Assembly (NCBI RefSeq): GCF_009828925.2
Contig: NZ_WUTY02000001.1
Location: 1,766,492-1,830,491 of the forward strand
Source of the DNA: Methylicorpusculum oleiharenae
GTDB taxonomy: Bacteria; Pseudomonadota; Gammaproteobacteria; Methylococcales; Methylomonadaceae
Length of the DNA stretch: 64,000 bases
Direction: 5' to 3'
In this document: positions 52,301-62,160 of the stretch, piece by piece
Layout of the letters: every line of letters starts with the position of its first letter
Numbering within the stretch: position 1 is the stretch's first letter
Made by a program: the position numbers and the translations under genes
The notes under the pieces: model-generated
The model's input: only the letters and a program-made list of their open reading frames with translations
Database searches by the model: none
What the model was told of the DNA's origin: nothing

Positions 52301-52449
52301 AATAAAATCGAACGATTTTTCAGTATAAAAGGAGTAGTTCAAAGTAACCCGGCTCGATCGTGTCGATTCGCAAAAGTCAGTCTATATTTGTGGGGTAAGG
52401 ATTGACCAATTTGGGAAAGGATTGAAGTGGATTGTTGATTGGCGTTTTA

Positions 52450-53658
52450 ATGAATAGAGAAAAGCACTTACTGAAAATTCATGTATACGAACTGAAAATA
52501 GGCATGTTCGTTGCCCAGCTTGATATACCCTGGGAAAAGTCTCCCTTTCTTCTTCAAGGTTTTGATATCAAATCGCCTGCCGACATCAGTGCGGTTCAGC
52601 AGGTATGCGATTACGTGTACATCGATACATCAAGACAGAAAGATACCCATGGGGCTGTTTCAGATGAATTGAGTGTCAAGTTCAGCCTGTCTTTTGAAGG
52701 TGCTTTCGGCGCGGCAAAAAACACCTATCAAAGCACCAGTAATCTGGTCAAATCAGTAATGGATGATATTCGTTTTGGTAATCAGCTTAATGTCAATGCC
52801 GTCAAGTCACTGGTGAGTGATTGTGTCGATCGTGTATTGGAAAATCCCGATGCCATGATGTTATTGACACAACTGAAAAATAAAGACGAATACACATCGC
52901 AGCACAGTCTTAATGTCAGCATCATGTCCATTCTGCTGGGTCGGCATTTAAACTATTCGGTTGAAGACCTTAACAAGCTGGGCTTAAGCGGGTTGCTTCA
53001 CGACATGGGTAAAATGAAAATTCCGCTGGAGATTCTTAATAAAGAGGGCAATTTAACCCCCGATGAATTTAAAGTGATGAGAACCCACGCCACGCATGGC
53101 CGGGATATTTTGATGTCGGCCAGAGAAATTTATCCGGGTGCAATTGATGTTGCGTATATGCATCATGAAAAGCTCGATGGCACTGGATATCCCATAGGGA
53201 TTATGGATACGGGGATCTCGCAATTTGTCCGGATTGTGGCGATAGCGGATGTTTATGATGCCATCACCAGCGACAGAGTTTACCAAAAAGGACGCCTGCA
53301 TCTTGAAGCGATCAACACGTTGACGCATAACAGAAAGACGCATTTTGACGCGGATCTGGTCATCAAGTTTATCGACTGTATCGGTATTTATCCTGTGGGT
53401 AATCCGGTAGAGATGACTAATGGGGAAGTGGGTGTTGTGATTGCCGGTAATAGCAAGCAAAAAACCAAGCCGAAAGTAATGATGTTGCTGAATGCTGAAA
53501 AAACAGAACGCGAAGCGCTGATCATTGATCTTGCTGACCCTGCTTGTGTTGATTCAAAGGGCGAAGCCTACCGTATCTACAAAGTGCTGCACCAAAACCA
53601 ATACGGCTTGAATCTTAGAGACTATTTTAACGATGGAAAATTTCTTCCAGCGAATTAA
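52450..53658 (+). CDS. HD-GYP domain c-di-GMP phosphodiesterase
   Basis: About 402 residues from ATG 52450. N-terminal DUF3391 (about 5-130; IHVYELKIGMFVAQLDIPWE) and a C-terminal HD-GYP domain (about 135-330) with LLHDMGKMKIP and HHEKLDGTGYP, the metal-binding and GYP motifs of active c-di-GMP phosphodiesterases. Monocistronic. Confidence 0.94.
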   Translation: MNREKHLLKIHVYELKIGMFVAQLDIPWEKSPFLLQGFDIKSPADISAVQQVCDYVYIDTSRQKDTHGAVSDELSVKFSLSFEGAFGAAKNTYQSTSNLVKSVMDDIRFGNQLNVNAVKSLVSDCVDRVLENPDAMMLLTQLKNKDEYTSQHSLNVSIMSILLGRHLNYSVEDLNKLGLSGLLHDMGKMKIPLEILNKEGNLTPDEFKVMRTHATHGRDILMSAREIYPGAIDVAYMHHEKLDGTGYPIGIMDTGISQFVRIVAIADVYDAITSDRVYQKGRLHLEAINTLTHNRKTHFDADLVIKFIDCIGIYPVGNPVEMTNGEVGVVIAGNSKQKTKPKVMMLLNAEKTEREALIIDLADPACVDSKGEAYRIYKVLHQNQYGLNLRDYFNDGKFLPAN

Positions 53659-53717
53659 CCCGACCCAAAAAAGAGATTATTGAATTTCAAACGTAAAGTA
53701 TTAACGCCAGCAATGGT

Positions 53718-53777: not shown

Positions 53778-54992
53778 TTACAAACCCTTGGCGACCTTGG
53801 CTAATGCTGTTTGAAACCAGTTGAATCCAATCATTTCTTGCTCGAGACGCAAGTTCTTGCGAATTCGATTATCCCGAAGAGCATCAAACAAGGATTGCTC
53901 ATCTGTCGTTAATAACGGCAAGTCCTGAAGAGCCTGGCTTTCTTCATTACCCCACAAAGACTCATGAGTGAACAGAGTTTCACGGTCCATCATGAATGAT
54001 TCAACGTGGCTAAAACGGCTGCGTAGCTGATTCAATATGGCAAAGCCATGAGTATCGATATCTCCCCAGTAATAGATGAGGCAATCGGAAAGCCAGTGAA
54101 TATTCGACAAGTTATCCCAACCGTAACCCGCACCAAAAATAATCAGGCTGTCCGCTATCGGAGGAAAAGCCAAAAAATTCGTTTCGTTCTCGGTGATGAA
54201 AACTCGGCTGGCAATCGCAGGAAGTCTGGCAAAACTGGCGCTATCTAATGTGATGTCCGGTGTCCCGCCGCCCGGTAATGGCGATTTAGACGGGTCCAGC
54301 ACTCGAAACCGTATACGGGCCGGTTTGTTTCGAAAACCATAGCGTACCGAAAATTGTCCCACACCGGTTGCTTCCAAAGCGATAGCGTCTTCAGGTAAGC
54401 TTATATCAAAGAGTTCTGTCAAAACCCCACGATGAGCCTCGATAAATTTGCTGTTTACCCCGGGAATGTCCACTTGACGTAAGTAAATACCCGGCCGGGG
54501 ATGAGTTTGCATCCAATCCACTGTGTCAAGCAGTAAAGACCAACGATCGGCCAGTTCCAGTGCTTTCAACGGTCGTTTGGCTAGCCAGCGCAATAACAAG
54601 GGTTGGCGTTGCCGGGTTTCGTCCAGCAAAACAGAAAACCGATTAGCCTCGATGCGTTTGCCCAACATTGCCAACGCAGCATCCAGACTGTCGATCCAGG
54701 CTTCGCCGGGTATCGAATTGATGCCGAAAAGCTGATGAATGAAGGTCTTTATTTCAATTCTAAAATGCGAAACATTCGTCAGCGCTTTTACCCATAACCG
54801 CACCTCTTCGAAGTTTTCGGAAATTTCCTTTGACGTCGGGCCTTTCAAGTTCAGCCGTTTGGGAAAACAATTTTCACTTTCGATCAACGGTGTTAACAGT
54901 TCACCTTTGTCCCATAGCTTTTGCACTTGAGCGCGCAAATCGGAGGGGCTGGTCCAATTGTTTTTTTTACGGGGTGAGTTATTGCGACTCAT
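53778..54992 (-). CDS. jetD: Wadjet system nuclease subunit JetD
   Basis: 404-residue subunit that cuts plasmid DNA in Wadjet defence. N-terminal DUF3322 (about 10-195; [31 protein letters not shown]) and C-terminal DUF2220 TOPRIM-like nuclease (about 225-404). Its acidic residues are intact: E268/E270 in FITENETNF and D311/D313 in WGDIDTHG, with E384/E386 in the final helix. Known JetD acts on circular DNA held by the JetABC loop extruder. Start overlaps the jetC stop by ATGA; last gene of the operon. Confidence 0.93.
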
Positions 54993-57900
54993 GCATTCTC
55001 ACTGACCTGCTGTCTGCGAGCGGTTTCCTTACGATATTCTTCGATTGAAAGATTGCGTAATTGGGAGGCACGGCCTTGTTCGTTGTATACAAAGCCTACA
55101 TGGGCAACATAGGGCTCGATAATATGAATTTTTTGCAACGGCGTAACAATCAGCAGTTGCAAATTAAGCTTCTCGAACAAGCGTAAACCGTATTGGGCCG
55201 ATTCGTCAGAGCCTCGACCAAAGGCTTCGTCGATGACGACGAAACGGAACGAACGCGAGCGCAGTGCACCCCATTCCAAACCGAATTGATAGGCCAAACT
55301 GGCCGCCAAGATGGTGTAGGCGAGTTTTTCTTTTTGCCCGCCGGATTTGCCACCGGAATCCGAATAATGCTCGTGCTCGCTGTCGTCGGCGCGCCAACGT
55401 TCACTGGCTGCAAAAGTGAACCAGTTGCGCACGTCGGTGACTTTGGATGTCCAGCGTTTGTCTTGGTCCGAAAGCCCTTCACGTCCACGGAAACGGTCGA
55501 TAATGGTTTTGACTTGCAAAAATTTGGCTTCGGAATACTGCGCATCATCTGAGCCCGTCAATGAACCTTCGGTACACGCCCGAAGGTCGCTTTGGAAATC
55601 GCGAATATCGGCATCCGGGCTGGGTTGAGAGACCAGTACGATGTAGCGCCCCTGGTTGTAGTCGATTTGAGTCAGAGAGTCGTTGATGCGGTCGATGCGT
55701 TCTCGAATGGTTTCGCGCTCGCGGGATAACTGGGCGTTGAAGTTTGCGATTTCGTTAATGGTATTGACGTTCAACAGTTCTTTGAAGCGGGCCTCGAAAC
55801 GCGGCAGGTCGTCGCGGCCCAATTTGTCGAGCAGGTTTTGATATTCGAATGCGGCCTCGATGCTGGCATCAAATTCGGCTGTTTCCAGTTTGAATTCGTC
55901 CTTGAAGATCATCATTGTCTGGATGATTTTGTCGCGTAAAGATTTAAGTTTGCGATCTTCGTTATCGATAAACTTTTGCAGCCAAGCACGCGTATCCTGT
56001 TCGCGATTGTCGCACGATTCGACGCTGAGCTGATGTTCGCCCAACGCCTCATGGCGTATTGTCTCCAACTTCTCAATTAAATGCGAAATATCGGCGGTCA
56101 TTTGCGACAGGGTTTGCTCACGCAGGCTCTCTGCATCTTGCTTTCTTTGTTCGGTCTTCGAGCGTTTGTCCCTGGCTTGTTTCAAGTCCTCTTCAATGAT
56201 TTTTAATGTTGCTTCGATCTGTTTCAACTGATCGGTAAGTTCCCGCAATAAATCCGATGCCGATTCCAGGCTGCGTAGCTCCGCTTCTAATTTGGCAATC
56301 TCTCCGGCAACCGAAGGCCAATCCAAGTCCTCGAAATTGCTGAACTCTTCCAGTCGGGCTAAAGTTCCCAATCGCATTTGCAGTGATGTTCGCTCGGTTT
56401 TCAGTTTGTCGACATGGCCCTTGATTTCAGCCGCCTTAAGTTGCACGTTGCGGGCTTGTCCTTCCAGCGCGGAAATCTTGGCCGTATTGCTCCAGCCCAG
56501 TACATAGCGGCTCCGATCGTCGATTCGGTGTCTATCATCCTTTTCATGTCGCCCTGTTGGATCTTTTATTTGGCCGGCCATGGTGATCGCACGGGTTTCC
56601 CGGCGGAATTGCTCTTGCGTCATACAACAAGCTACATCGAAGCGATGAGCCACTTCCCGCTCAAGCCAGTCATAAAACGCTGAATCGGGTTTGATTGTCA
56701 GTTTTCGTGCTAGTGAATCGCGATGCAGATCAGGAAGATCAATGCGTCTGAGCGGGCGAACATGAAAATATACCAGACGGCCCTTAAGTTGATTGCGATC
56801 GATCCAATCAGACACAGCCGCATAGTGGCTGTCCGGCACCAACAACGACAAGCCAAAACCGCGCATCAGTCGTTCCGCAGCACCTTCCCAATTGCGCTCG
56901 TCTTCGCGGACCTGCAACAATTCGCCAGCAAACGGCATATCCTCTTCGGACAAATTCAATGCCTGGCATAGGGCCGTGCGTATCCTGATTTGCGGTTCAT
57001 CAATATTGCTTCTGCGTATTTTTAAACTGGCAATTTCATCGAGGAGTGCCTTATGTTTTTCCAGGCAGTTTCGTAAGTCGAAATCATGGTCGCGTTCCCG
57101 ATTTTCCAGATCAATAGTGTTTTCTTGCAGTGTGATCGCCCGTTCAGCCCATTGCTTGCTTTGGTTCACAAATTCGGATTCATGAGTCGCTGGCTGCTCA
57201 CCCAGTTGCTTGACCAATTCGGCGTAACGATCCGCCTTTAATTGACGTGAGTGGCGAATTTTTTCGTTTTTCTTGATGTCGTTTTTTAAGCGTTCCAACT
57301 GGTCACCACCATTTTGGGCCATTGCGGTTTTTAGTTCGCCCACTCGACCGCTTTGTTCCTCGTGCTGATGCTCAAGACGTTTAACCTGGGCATCTTGTTT
57401 GCCCCAATCTTCCTTCAGCAAATTAAGTCGTTTATCCAGCAAGGCCAACTTCAAGCCGGAAAAATAAGTCCGCAAGGCATCGCGGGCCTGTCGCGACTGT
57501 TCGATTTCTCCGACCAACTCGCTGTGATGTCGGCAATTGGCAGTTAGCGGCGTTAATAATTCGACCTGGCGTTTAGCCCTCAGGACAGCTTCATGGGCGC
57601 GATTCAGATCGTCGAAATGGGCTATCAACGCGCTGATGCGGGATGTTGTATCGGAAGGTTCCAACATGTGGCTGCGTACAAAATCAGTCAGGTTGCCTAC
57701 CGATTTCATCGACACGGTTTGGTGGAATAATTCCAACGCCTGTTCGTTGTCGATGCCGAAACGGCGCCTGAACCACGCACCATATTTCGGAAAACTGTCT
57801 TCAATTTCCGCGCCCAATCCGCGCAACTTTTTGCGCAATTGCGAAATGTCGGTGCCAAAGCGGGAAAAGTCGTTGGCAATCGACAATTCACGTTCGGCGC

Positions 57901-58366
57901 CGACAAAAAAGCGTGCGGGCTGGCCTTGTGCGTCCTTCAGCCAGAACACTTGAGCCAAGGTGACGGTTTGATCGTAACCGGCATTGTGAAATACCCCCAA
58001 GATTACGGAATAGGTGTTGGCGTCTCGCAATGGCACCGGCTTAGCCGTGCCGGTGACCTCATTGCGTTCCGATTTGTAATGCCCCAGCACATAAGAACGC
58101 AAGCTACGTTCCTTGCTGTCGGCGCCGGCCGCTTTGTTATAAGCGACACGATTGGCCGGCACCAGTAAAGTCGTTACGGCATCGACCAAGGTCGATTTGC
58201 CTGAGCCGATGTCGCCGGTCAGCAGACCATTTTTGCCATCCAGCTGTAATGTCCAGACGCGCCCGTCAAAGGTGCCCCAGTTAAACACTTCCAAACGCTT
58301 TAAGCGAAAACCCGATAGCGCATCGTCTGCTACAAAGTCCAAGTCGAGGGTATAGGGCTGAGTCAT
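54989..58366 (-). CDS. jetC: Wadjet system SMC-like ATPase JetC
   Basis: 1125-residue SMC/MukB-like motor. Walker [10 protein letters not shown] (51-59), long coiled-coil arms (about 230-480 and 620-900) around a hinge region, and at the C-terminus signature SGGQKEK (1008-1014) and Walker [10 protein letters not shown] (D/E at 1046-1047). The [19 protein letters not shown] stretch is characteristic of JetC. In characterised systems it forms, with JetA and JetB, a loop-extruding complex that recognises small circular DNA. ATGA overlaps on both sides. Confidence 0.95.
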
Positions 58367-59043
58367 GTTGTCTGTCCAAGGGTAGAATCATCATTATTTC
58401 TATCAAGTGTCCGATTTCTCGCCTCTCGCGGAGCGTCTGCGCCCAATTGAGCTTGGTAAGCTGCCAATCGAGCATCGAAATCAGTCAGCCATTGCGCATC
58501 GACAAATGCTTTCAGAATTCGCTTCACTTCAAAACCAACAGGTCCCGCCGTTGTTTTTAGTCGGCGCAAAAAACCAAGTTCGATGATTTTGTTGATGTGC
58601 GTTTCGATTTGATCGATCAGTCTGGCTTCATTGCTGCTATCCGGTAAAAACACCCTGATCAGATCGACGATTTCGTCACGCGACAAGATTAATCGCGTAT
58701 CACCTCCACTGGCATCAAATTCAGCCAGTTTCTTGCGAAGCAGAACGAGTAATAAGCTAACCGGGAAAGACAAGGGTCGCCGTGCGATCAAGCGAGGGAT
58801 TTTATCCGCTTCGATTTCATCGTCGTCCGATTTGGAGCGCATAAATGCGTAGCCTTCGGCCTCATCCAATACCAGATCCAATCCGATGACCGCCGTATAG
58901 TCGCGTACGCGGGCCTGCAGATTGAGCAGGGTTGACCACAATTGTTCATCGCCCTCGCGGTAGATAACACCCTTGAGCAAAGTAATAACCAGTGTGGAAA
59001 GATCGATGCTTTTATCGACCGGGATTTCGTGATCCATCATCAC
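58363..59043 (-). CDS. jetB: Wadjet system subunit JetB (DUF4194)
   Basis: 226 residues, DUF4194, the MukE-like winged-helix partner in the JetABC complex. Typical stretches: [44 protein letters not shown], and [21 protein letters not shown]. The C-terminal tail is charged and may be disordered. Its ATG overlaps the jetA stop. Confidence 0.93.
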
Positions 59044-60494
59044 CTCACAAAAATGAAACGGGGCAAATGCGCTCGTTTATGGGATAAAACGCCATCAACA
59101 CCCGGGCTACGCCAAACGATCAGGTCAAGGGTATCCTCGTCAACGACCGTCTTGAACAGTTCGCTACCCAATTGCAGATAGGCCACCAATTCAGCCAGGC
59201 CTTGTCGTAAAGGGTGTTTTTCAATCAAATCGCGCAGGGTGATTTGGGAGCGTTGCTGCAAGGCTTGGCGAATATGGTGGGCCAGTTCTGACTTATCGAT
59301 AATCACTTGCGAATAAAGCACGTCGACATCTACTTTGGCATCGCCTGTTTCCAAATCGATATTGGCGATCACAGGCTTCACAGCCGGTTTGTAAAGCGGG
59401 CGCTCTAAAGGTAATTCCGCTTCGGCAGCGGTGTCGGCAATACGGGTGATTTGACCGACAGGCGGGTTATCGCGTAAGGCCAGTGCCTTGGTTTCGATGC
59501 CATGCAAAATATCCATGATACGCCGGTTTTCCAACCACGCTTTATCATCGAGAAAGCGTCTTAGCTGTTGGGAAAGTTGAGCTACCGTGCGTTGAGTGTG
59601 CTCGCCGGCCTCCAGCCAGTCATAATGGACACGTCGAGTACGCGCATCGGGCTTGAGTTCCTCAATGGGTGATAGCGAGAGGACTCGCGCGAGTAACTCG
59701 GACAGTTCTTCTTGGCGCCGACTGGACATCAAGAAATCCCAGAAAGCACGAAAGCTTCTACCTTGATCAGAGTCGGCAATCGCATCACGCTCACCCATGA
59801 TCTGTTCCAGCAATTCACCTTTGGCGCCATCCCACAAGGCAATACGCTCCCGTACCCGCTGGTCCAGAAGCCGAAAATTATGTTCCACCTCGCGAAAATC
59901 CGTAAGTAGTTCACGCGCCAGTTGCATAAATTGCTGGAATCGATCTTTCAAAGCGGTATCGTCTAACAGGGGTACATCACCCGCTAATACTCTGGCTATC
60001 TCTGCATCAATTTCGTCGCGCCGCTTGTGTAACTCGGCAATGCGTTTGATTGAATCGGTTTCACTGCCCTCGCTCATCTGCTTGAGTAACTCAAACAAAG
60101 TCAGTAAACGCGATTCTGTTCCGACAAAACTACGTTCGGATAATGTTCCAAGCCAGGCGATTGCCTTTTCAGTTGAGGGCATTAAATCAAACTGAGGCTC
60201 ATCCGAACCTTGTCGATAGAATTTGCGCAACCAGCCTTTTTCAGGACTGGCCCAGTCATTGAGGTAATCCAATGCTGCTTTTGGAAATACCTCGGCACCT
60301 AATCTGTCCCGCAAGGCGTAAAGTTCGTCCTCCAGCGCCTCAGCCAGATCAGCTGCAGCCATCACGCGAACATTAGGTACAATAAATACCCGATGAAGAA
60401 AGCTGGCTATGAGAGGCGCATGGTCCGAACGTAAAAGGCGCCAAGCGGGGTGGTGAGTCCGCAATGCCTCAAGTGATATGAAGTCAATGGTCAT
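59040..60494 (-). CDS. jetA: Wadjet system subunit JetA (DUF3375)
   Basis: 484 residues, DUF3375, the kleisin (MukF-like) subunit. N-terminal helical domain (ISLEALRTHHPAWRLLRSDHAPLIASF), central coiled coil (about 150-260; LHKRRDEIDAEIARVLAG) and C-terminal winged helix. First gene of jetABCD, with ribosome site CGGAGC upstream. Together the four genes define a complete Wadjet type I system. Confidence 0.94.
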   Translation of the reverse strand: MTIDFISLEALRTHHPAWRLLRSDHAPLIASFLHRVFIVPNVRVMAAADLAEALEDELYALRDRLGAEVFPKAALDYLNDWASPEKGWLRKFYRQGSDEPQFDLMPSTEKAIAWLGTLSERSFVGTESRLLTLFELLKQMSEGSETDSIKRIAELHKRRDEIDAEIARVLAGDVPLLDDTALKDRFQQFMQLARELLTDFREVEHNFRLLDQRVRERIALWDGAKGELLEQIMGERDAIADSDQGRSFRAFWDFLMSSRRQEELSELLARVLSLSPIEELKPDARTRRVHYDWLEAGEHTQRTVAQLSQQLRRFLDDKAWLENRRIMDILHGIETKALALRDNPPVGQITRIADTAAEAELPLERPLYKPAVKPVIANIDLETGDAKVDVDVLYSQVIIDKSELAHHIRQALQQRSQITLRDLIEKHPLRQGLAELVAYLQLGSELFKTVVDEDTLDLIVWRSPGVDGVLSHKRAHLPRFIFVR

Positions 60495-60604
60495 TTAACT
60501 TGCTCCGACATAGAACAAAGTGAATTGACGCATCTCGTTAGTCTTCAACCGATTTAATAAAGTTCTGGATGCATCTACCTTCACTGTGACCATTCCTGAT
60601 GGGT

Positions 60605-60638
60605 ATTTGTGCGTTATGATGATCATTATGCAAATGAC
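60605..60638. promoter_or_regulatory. Possible operator between jetA and the WYL regulator
   Basis: ATTTGTGC and GCAAAT flank the 8-base palindrome ATGATCAT (60619-60626 area) in the 209-base divergent intergenic region. BrxR/CapW proteins bind inverted repeats upstream of their own genes, so this is a candidate site; symmetry is imperfect. Confidence 0.3.
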
Positions 60639-60658
60639 TACGACTCATAAAATAGCTA

Positions 60659-60687
60659 TAGACACATTTTAGGGCAGTCAATATACT
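60659..60687 (+). promoter_or_regulatory. Promoter of the WYL regulator
   Basis: TAGACA (60659-60664), 17-base spacer, TATACT (60682-60687). The expected transcript start (about 60694) is only about 10 bases before the ATG at 60704, so translation would be nearly leaderless unless the in-frame ATG at 60737 is used. Confidence 0.55.
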
Positions 60688-60703
60688 TTGCGCAACCATT
60701 CTA

Positions 60704-61651
60704 ATGAATCATCAAAATAATCGATTGTTTCAGATGTCTAACGAAAAACTTTCAGCATTGACCCAGCCGCAGCGAGATAGGCTTGCATTTGTGGAATTGC
60801 GTGTACGCTTTATCGGAGAAATTCGTCGTCAAGATTTAGTGTCACGGTTTGGCATTCAATCTGCCGCTGCTACTCGTGACCTGGCGCTTTATAAAGACAT
60901 TGGACCAAACAACATAGACTATGACGCCAAAGGCAAGTCTTACGTCATCGGGACTGATTTTTCTCCGCTATTCGATTTTCCGCCGGAACGGGTTTTGACC
61001 TGGTTGTCACAGGGGTTCGGTGACGGTGAGCCACTGTTGTTAAAGCCCTGGGTTTCCTGTGAAATTCCTACCAGGCTCACGGAACCTTATCTTGCGATTC
61101 TGGCAGCTGTAACCCGCGCCATTCATCTGCAGTGCCCATTAAAAATAGAGTATTTCTCCATTACCAGCGGCAAAAGCGTTCGTGAAATCGTTCCATTTGC
61201 CTTAACCGACAATGGCTTGCGCTGGCATCTAAGAGCGTTTGATCGGAAAAGTCAGGAGTTTAGGGATTTTGTCATCACTCGCATCAAGCAACCCGTTGTG
61301 ATGAAAGGGGCTGAAGTGCTAACACACGAACGAAGCGACCAGGATATACAGTGGACCCGTATAGTAGAACTTGATTTGGTTCCCCATCCCGACCAGCCAT
61401 ACCCTGAAATTACCGAAATGGATTACGCCATGAGGAATGGCATTCTGCACGTCAAACTTCGGGCGGCCACCGCCGGCTACACACTGCGCAAATGGAACGT
61501 GGATTGTTCGCCGGACCACAGCTTGCATAGTCATGAGTACCGGCTTTGGCTTAGTGATTCTTTGGCTTTGTACGGGGTCGGAAACGCAAAGCTTGCCCCT
61601 GGTTACCGTGCTCCAATGACCGGCAACTCAACATCTTTGGATCGTAAATGA
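60704..61651 (+). CDS. WYL-domain regulator of BrxR/CapW type
   Basis: 315 residues (304 if the ATG at 60737 is used). N-terminal winged helix (about 20-95; RLAFVELRVRFIGEIRRQDL, SAAATRDLALYKD), central WYL domain (about 130-205; LKIEYFSITSGKSVREIVPF, LRWHLRAFDRKSQEFRDFV) and C-terminal WCX extension (about 210-300). This is the layout of BrxR and CapW, dimeric repressors that control BREX, CBASS and other phage-defence operons and are thought to sense a nucleic-acid or nucleotide ligand through WYL. It is divergent from jetABCD, so it probably regulates the Wadjet operon. That pairing is inference from position. Confidence 0.85.
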   Translation: MNHQNNRLFQMSNEKLSALTQPQRDRLAFVELRVRFIGEIRRQDLVSRFGIQSAAATRDLALYKDIGPNNIDYDAKGKSYVIGTDFSPLFDFPPERVLTWLSQGFGDGEPLLLKPWVSCEIPTRLTEPYLAILAAVTRAIHLQCPLKIEYFSITSGKSVREIVPFALTDNGLRWHLRAFDRKSQEFRDFVITRIKQPVVMKGAEVLTHERSDQDIQWTRIVELDLVPHPDQPYPEITEMDYAMRNGILHVKLRAATAGYTLRKWNVDCSPDHSLHSHEYRLWLSDSLALYGVGNAKLAPGYRAPMTGNSTSLDRK

Positions 61652-62008: not shown

Positions 62009-62058
62009 TGGTGCCCCGAACACGATTCGAACGTGTGACCTTCCCCTTAGGAGCGGGA
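62009..62058 (-). other. 3' half of a tRNA gene (tRNA-Arg CCT-like), likely attachment-site scar
   Basis: On the minus strand: anticodon loop CTCCTAA (anticodon CCT) with stem TCCCG/GGGGA (one mismatch), variable AGGTC, T arm ACACG-TTCGAAT-CGTGT (perfect stem), acceptor strand TCGGGGC, discriminator A and CCA. The 5' half (acceptor strand GCCCCGA and D arm) is missing upstream, so it cannot make a tRNA. Fragments running from the anticodon loop to the 3' end are typical of integrase attachment sites. Confidence 0.65.
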
Positions 62059-62160
62059 GTAGCCATATAAAAAACCCTTATTTAACAGTTGGTTAGAGCA
62101 TGCCGCCTTGCGTGCTTATGACAGGAAACGACACTGGTACTTGCCGTCCGACAAGGGTTT

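Follow-up and report, generated by a model that had tools for sequence, protein, structure and literature searches.

A type I Wadjet operon head-to-head with a BrxR/CapW-family regulator in Methylicorpusculum oleiharenae: a recurrent pairing and its possible role in control

The operon, the regulator and the gap between them

In the methane-oxidising bacterium Methylicorpusculum oleiharenae, a 64,000-nt stretch of DNA (contig NZ_WUTY02000001.1, positions 1,766,492 to 1,830,491; hereafter the window) carries on its reverse strand, at 53778-60494, what is by gene order, domains and motifs an intact type I Wadjet operon, jetABCD, an anti-plasmid defence system. A gene encoding a regulator of the BrxR/CapW family diverges from it (Table 1). 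A preliminary description of this DNA had called the Wadjet complete and its catalytic motifs intact, and both statements held, as the gene order, the Pfam domains and the best PADLOC models, which are type I throughout, agree with each other. None of the five genes contains an internal stop. JetC is matched by the solved structures 8dk2 and 8as8 and has a Walker motif (residues 51-59), a signature motif (KSGGQKEK, 1007-1014) and a Walker B motif (FVVIDEAF, 1042-1049). JetD, in which Pfam finds JetD_C and DUF3322, is matched by MksG/JetD structures, and three of its stretches (ITENETNF at 266-273, 307-317 and LRLEQEMIG at 381-389) align opposite their MksG counterparts; E236, D279, E349 and E351 of MksG are given as metal-binding and proposed catalytic residues in PMC10123090. 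The ATGA overlap that had been described for every gene junction is present at jetB/jetC and jetC/jetD, while the jetA/jetB overlap is GTGA, which becomes TGATG with a jetB start moved one codon downstream. DUF3375 occurs once in the 5.85-Mb genome, in this jetA. The operon is the same in gene order, domains and catalytic residues as the known type I Wadjet/JetABCD and MksBEFG systems (PDB 8dk2, 8as8, 8b7f, 7til); the accessible parts of PMC10586767 and PMC10123090 mention no adjacent BrxR-type regulator for these systems, whereas the window has one.

Table 1. Coordinates (window numbering) of the jetABCD operon, the divergent regulator and the elements of the gap between them
Feature	Coordinates	Strand	Description
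jetD	53778..54992	-	404 aa, TOPRIM nuclease subunit; PF09983 1.4e-54, PF11795 1.2e-53; PADLOC JetD1 488 bits
jetC	54989..58366	-	1125 aa, SMC-like ATPase; Pfam AAA_29 and SbcC_Walker_B; PADLOC JetC1 1639 bits
jetB	58363..59043	-	226 aa, MukE/KITE-like; DUF4194 1.1e-45, MksE; PADLOC JetB1 316 bits
jetA	59040..60494	-	484 aa, DUF3375, MukF/kleisin-like; PF11855 1.8e-153; PADLOC JetA1 733 bits
Shared divergent intergenic region, jetA/regulator	60495..60733	.	239 bp, for a regulator start at 60734
E1	60618..60632	+	ATCANNATGC; weakly conserved half-site-like element, candidate operator; from alignment of 9 clade members
E2	60658..60697	+	conserved block over the regulator core promoter, candidate operator/promoter; conserved in 9 homologues with different partners
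BrxR/CapW-family regulator	60734..61651	+	305 aa, winged helix-turn-helix, WYL and WCX domains; start set by alignment, earlier start 60704 gives 315 aa

The gene on the forward strand is a true member of the BrxR/CapW family, with full-length homology and the winged helix-turn-helix, WYL and WCX domains that the preliminary description had assigned to it. Its closest solved relative is the BrxR of pEFER (7qfz, E 3.6e-84, residues 12-302), followed by CapW and the Acinetobacter BrxR, and Pfam reports a WYL domain. An AlphaFold monomer model (predicted local distance difference test score 86.7) has as its top Foldseek matches BrxR 7qfz, CapW 7tb6 and 9c5g, the structure of CapW with single-stranded DNA (ssDNA). 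Across 27 sequences, Y140 and R183 of the WYL pocket are invariant and W164, H165 and F179 nearly so, the roles of these residues being as described for CapW (PMC9122588). The BrxR of the pEFER island (PMC9122601; 7qfz), which is reported to be a repressor that binds inverted repeats, shares with the window gene the full-length homology, the fold and the position at the promoter of a defence locus. It controls co-directional BREX (bacteriophage exclusion) and BrxU genes, whereas a divergent Wadjet lies opposite the window gene, which lacks a clear inverted repeat. The fold and the pocket (Tyr, Trp-His, Arg-Asp-Phe, Arg) are likewise common to the window regulator and the CapW of CBASS (cyclic oligonucleotide-based antiphage signalling system; PMC9122588; ssDNA complex 9c5g). 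Nothing recognisable was found downstream of the regulator in the window, which leaves the Wadjet as the only intact system next to it.

Position 60734 is the probable start of the regulator, since its homologues begin at the aligned methionine and a start at 60704, as earlier assumed, would leave only 16 nt after the end of the conserved -10 (60682-60687). The shared gap, earlier taken as 209 bases, would accordingly measure 239 bp. Four further BrxR-family genes lie in the same genome (G000:C1:2697916, C1:5103492, C2:392908 and C1:1965997, in loci L157 and L213-L215; G and L numbers are our handles for genomes and loci); large genes unnamed by PADLOC adjoin those in L214 and L215, together with a DNA methylase in L215. 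The regulator family was found in 692 plasmid records and is almost absent from phages.

Two candidate operators were recognised in the gap. E2 holds a -35 (TAGACA, 60659-60664) and a -10 (TATACT) that reach 10/12 in a promoter scan, and the nine members of the window clade have this block in common. More weakly, they share an ATCA element near 60618-60632, the site of E1, which in the window is one base out of register. The E1 element recurs at a distance of 48-50 bp from the jetA start in two other loci, that of G477 and the unpaired Wadjet of G099. The best palindrome in the window (9/11 arm matches at 60610-60632) is no better than chance (shuffle p ~0.5). Regulator relatives of other subclades carry upstream of the regulator gene a 9-3-9 palindrome, ACATMATCA-NNN-TGATKATGT, which is also present in the shared gap of G583, G580, G566 and G567 (0/500 shuffles reach it). 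The motif was built from six same-family sites chosen by eye, none of them from these four loci, although the site of G447 is nearly identical to that of G566. As an operator for the window this motif was rejected, the window clade being without a match to it; this is consistent with the clade's recognition helix, IQSAAA, which is unlike those of the other subclades. No upstream region of an unpaired jetA reaches 18 bits for the family motif. Comparison of the window's gap with these regions gave no significant match and nothing alignable, and thus no homologous jetA promoter in the unpaired relatives.

Recurrence of the head-to-head arrangement

The preliminary description had suggested that regulator and jet genes be sought together in other genomes, and the outcome depended on where the search was made. 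At the 80 GTDB loci whose JetA is closest to that of the window (71-85% identity), no BrxR-family gene was found in the DNA covered (0/80); a hidden Markov model of the regulator family picked up a single weak and distant WYL protein there, encoded 3 kb upstream in the same orientation (L069). A search for both genes in 369 genomes from the class and 311 from the order found head-to-head pairs, besides that of the window, in G476, G477, G583, G580, G566, G567 and G125. The order-wide census thereby overturned the reading of the window as an isolated coincidence, which the closest loci had seemed to support. The regulator is divergent from jetA at 155-364 bp in 8/140 non-redundant Jet loci, counting those for which 1.5 kb or more of upstream sequence was available (15/168 loci without a JetA open reading frame were excluded from the counts). 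A tandem regulator at this distance occurs in none of the 140 loci, and a regulator on the jetD side in none of the 59 where that side is visible; this bias (8/140 vs 0/59, p 0.11) comes with jetD-side sequence that is too scant for a conclusion.

The eight divergent pairs belong to four JetA lineages and several regulator clades. The JetA proteins of G476/G477 and of G583/G580/G566/G567 are only 26-29% identical to that of the window, and in the regulator tree the paired proteins are spread over several clades. Six parsimony changes for pairing are needed on the JetA tree, including two loci with extended operons: in G574 the regulator, a metallo-beta-lactamase-fold protein, an unknown gene and jetABCD all run in one direction, and in G579 the regulator is divergent and five genes precede jetA. 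The head-to-head pairing seems to have some four to six origins involving unrelated Wadjets, a number that depends on sampling and on approximate trees. These two loci could represent extended Wadjet variants, given the additional 5' metallo-beta-lactamase-fold and unknown proteins of G574 (L246 8644-10272) and the five additional 5' genes of G579, one of them E1-E2-like (L247 6310-10724).

As a control, 46 non-redundant Jet loci with a divergent open reading frame within 500 bp were grouped by homology. The BrxR family is the largest group, with seven members (G125 is omitted, a spurious open reading frame lying between its regulator and jetA); the next groups have 5, 3, 3, 2 and 2 members, and their source genomes look closely related. 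By Pfam, the 39 other divergent neighbours include EncFtn-like proteins, TPP enzymes, a glycosyltransferase, a Clp ATPase and Fic; the 25 families listed for them contain neither WYL nor a transcription regulator that recurs. JetA occurs in 10-12 plasmid records; of three that were inspected, the annotation of two shows no WYL gene up to 7 kb away, and the third is unannotated. No match was found in E. coli. One other head-to-head pairing was seen in G041 (L164 2734-9817), where a BrxR-family gene is divergent from a two-gene operon of a UvrD helicase and a PD-(D/E)XK protein.

Close relatives of the window regulator adjoin BREX (G099, G126, G447, G039), MzaABC (G028), type I restriction-modification (R-M) genes (G018, G430, G375), Tmt (G299) and Drm/SNF2-type genes. 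The preliminary description had conceded that the pairing would lose its meaning if the regulator were just as common beside unrelated genes or were absent beside other jet operons. Among the closest relatives one of these does apply, with no regulator at the closest JetA loci and most close homologues of the regulator lying elsewhere; but the neighbours of these homologues are defence systems, as is usual for this family, not unrelated genes, and the divergent pairing recurs in several other lineages. Because none of these closest loci carries the regulator and its homologues mostly stand by other systems, the regulator is, on genome comparison, an interchangeable part and not a standard Wadjet component.

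Closely related genomes illustrate how the pairing can change. Between G476 and G477, an identity of 98% sets in some 33 bp within the 3' end of the regulator gene and extends over the rest of that gene and all of jetABCD. Past the regulator, G476 has SNF2/type III R-M genes and G477 has BREX-like genes, the latter assignment, made by the similarity of its gene sizes to those of the BREX locus annotated in G126, being less secure. By this alignment the regulator stays with the Wadjet while the other side is exchanged. In G099, a regulator 93% identical to that of G476, along with 126 bp of promoter region where the identity ends, is placed beside BREX; a closely related Wadjet (88% DNA identity) is located elsewhere without a regulator, and its jetA has an E1-like sequence, TAATCACAATAC, 50 bp from the start. 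In G581 the regulator faces a decayed jetA, of which residues 1-115 are recognisable in a broken frame. These comparisons suggest that lineages can acquire, retain or lose the pairing, and that the regulator and its promoter behave as a cassette. Among other Jet loci, an open reading frame of 444 aa on the opposite strand splits jetD in G583, where the regulator and jetABC remain (L242 684-4490). In Accumulibacter genomes, within the DNA examined, jetA is found without recognisable jetB-D (L042, L057, L088) or about 4.5 kb from jetB (L047, L052).

A possible ssDNA-responsive switch and its alternatives

BrxR and CapW repress by binding their own promoters (PMC9122601, PMC9122588, PMC9122589), and ssDNA is reported to release both (Blankenchip & Corbett 2024, cited via PMC13373217). 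Taking this family behaviour together with the Wadjet being the only system adjacent to the regulator, we lean, with modest confidence, towards a type I Wadjet placed under a BrxR-family autorepressor, a mobile cassette whose control extends to jetABCD and is lifted by ssDNA. A regulator dimer would bind operator DNA in the shared gap, at E2 and perhaps E1, thereby covering the core promoter of its own gene, and keep both that gene and the divergent jetABCD low. ssDNA from a conjugating or transforming plasmid, from rolling-circle intermediates, or from DNA damage or phage would then be bound by the WYL/WCX face, the dimer would leave the operator, and the rising level of Wadjet would lead to destruction of small circular DNA. 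Within this scheme, autorepression is likely, while repression of jetABCD across the gap and ssDNA as the release signal at this locus are what we infer from the relatives. The suggestion in the preliminary description that the defence is inducible by a nucleic-acid signal fits the ssDNA release reported for the family.

Several observations weigh against this scheme. Neither motif matching nor palindrome shuffles gave a demonstrable operator in the window itself, and no jetA promoter was identified there. The distance to the jetA start is about 125 bp for E1 and 165 bp for E2, both elements being closer to the regulator, so that the geometry does not compel repression of jetA. Most Wadjets, in the order-wide census as among the closest relatives, do without the regulator, which is thus no conserved component of the system. 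In several genomes, moreover, the regulator also heads a co-directional defence operon, possibly its real target.

This last observation underlies the chief rival, in which the regulator is an orphan that arrived with a co-directional defence operon since lost and controls itself alone, the Wadjet being a bystander in the same island. The closest homologues usually head co-directional systems (BREX in G099 and G126, MzaABC in G028, type I R-M in G018), the regulator travels with its own promoter, as the end of the G476/G099 identity 126 bp upstream of the gene indicates, and a regulator with an Hhe gene is found both with a Wadjet (G583, G580) and without one (G576). Against an orphan, all eight directly adjacent pairs, from several lineages, are head-to-head and none is tandem; in G476/G477 it is the Wadjet that the regulator stays with; and in the window, G566 and G567 the far side of the regulator shows no recognised defence system. 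We consider an orphan unlikely, though a serious competitor. It is improbable that the regulator acts in trans on several genomic loci, with the Wadjet as one of them and adjacency incidental. The four further BrxR-family genes of the genome would suit such a regulon, as would the stand-alone Wadjet of G099, which has E1 near jetA while the regulator is elsewhere beside BREX; yet this E1 could equally be the remnant of a paired ancestor, its JetA being 0.05 substitutions per site from those of the paired G476/G477, and the family operator is generally absent upstream of unpaired jetA genes. Still less probable is a ligand-dependent activator of jetABCD. The ssDNA-binding WYL proteins DriD and PafBC do activate, and both appear at lower rank in the fold search, but the window regulator is far closer in sequence and fold to the repressors BrxR and CapW, and the conserved block spans the -35 and -10, a repressor-like position.

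The autorepressor scheme can also be set beside other controllers of immune operons. Repression would serve another purpose here than in CBASS, the system that CapW controls: CBASS kills the cell, whereas the cutting by Wadjet is directed at plasmids and leaves the chromosome intact. CapK+CapS and CapH+CapP (PMC13373217) are likewise DNA-damage-responsive repressors that are exchangeable among immune operons; their proteins are unrelated to the window regulator, and that paper does not mention Wadjet. Wadjet has been listed among the systems within 50 kb downstream of brxR homologues (Picton 2022, PMC9122601). In the open-access papers searched, with subscription papers and supplements outside the scope, this is the only one in which BrxR and Wadjet occur together, and MksBEFG and WYL occur together in none. 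Both the regulator family and the defence system are known; their pairing is new as a recurrent architecture, and its head-to-head form and repeated origin appear to be undescribed in that literature.

Additional layers of Wadjet regulation have been considered likely (PMC10586767), and how Wadjet is kept harmless to the cell, and whether its expression is constitutive, is little discussed in the sources consulted. The recurrent pairing suggests that anti-plasmid defence can stay off until needed, and it adds a plasmid-targeting system to those directly paired with BrxR-type controllers. More generally, Wadjet may repeatedly have been put under an ssDNA-sensing BrxR-type switch, such that incoming or rolling-circle ssDNA itself induces plasmid destruction; we offer this wider proposition tentatively, as a real possibility that falls short of an expectation. 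Pairing with a repressor whose reported inducer is ssDNA leads to a testable proposal, namely that a plasmid arriving by conjugation could switch on its own destruction, and closely related Wadjets with and without the regulator provide natural comparisons.

Flanks of the locus

Beyond jetD, an HD-GYP gene (52432-53658) has 92% DNA identity with the congener G001, which has no DUF3375 gene. The similarity to G001 stops at 53659, which suggests that the Wadjet side differs between the two by insertion or loss. In G001 (L155 13963-14827) the shared sequence ends at the HD-GYP stop and is followed by a transposase-like gene of the kind associated with repetitive extragenic palindromes (REP) and by a duplicated 132-bp HD-GYP end. 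On the opposite flank, a remnant of a lost defence system was sought downstream of the regulator and none was found. About 360 bp past the regulator gene, at 62010-62060 on the reverse strand, is the 3' part of a tRNA-Arg(CCT)-like gene, for which a full tRNA was not called and which resembles an attachment-site remnant; a 72-bp stretch overlapping it has an 84% match to a Methylobacterium plasmid.

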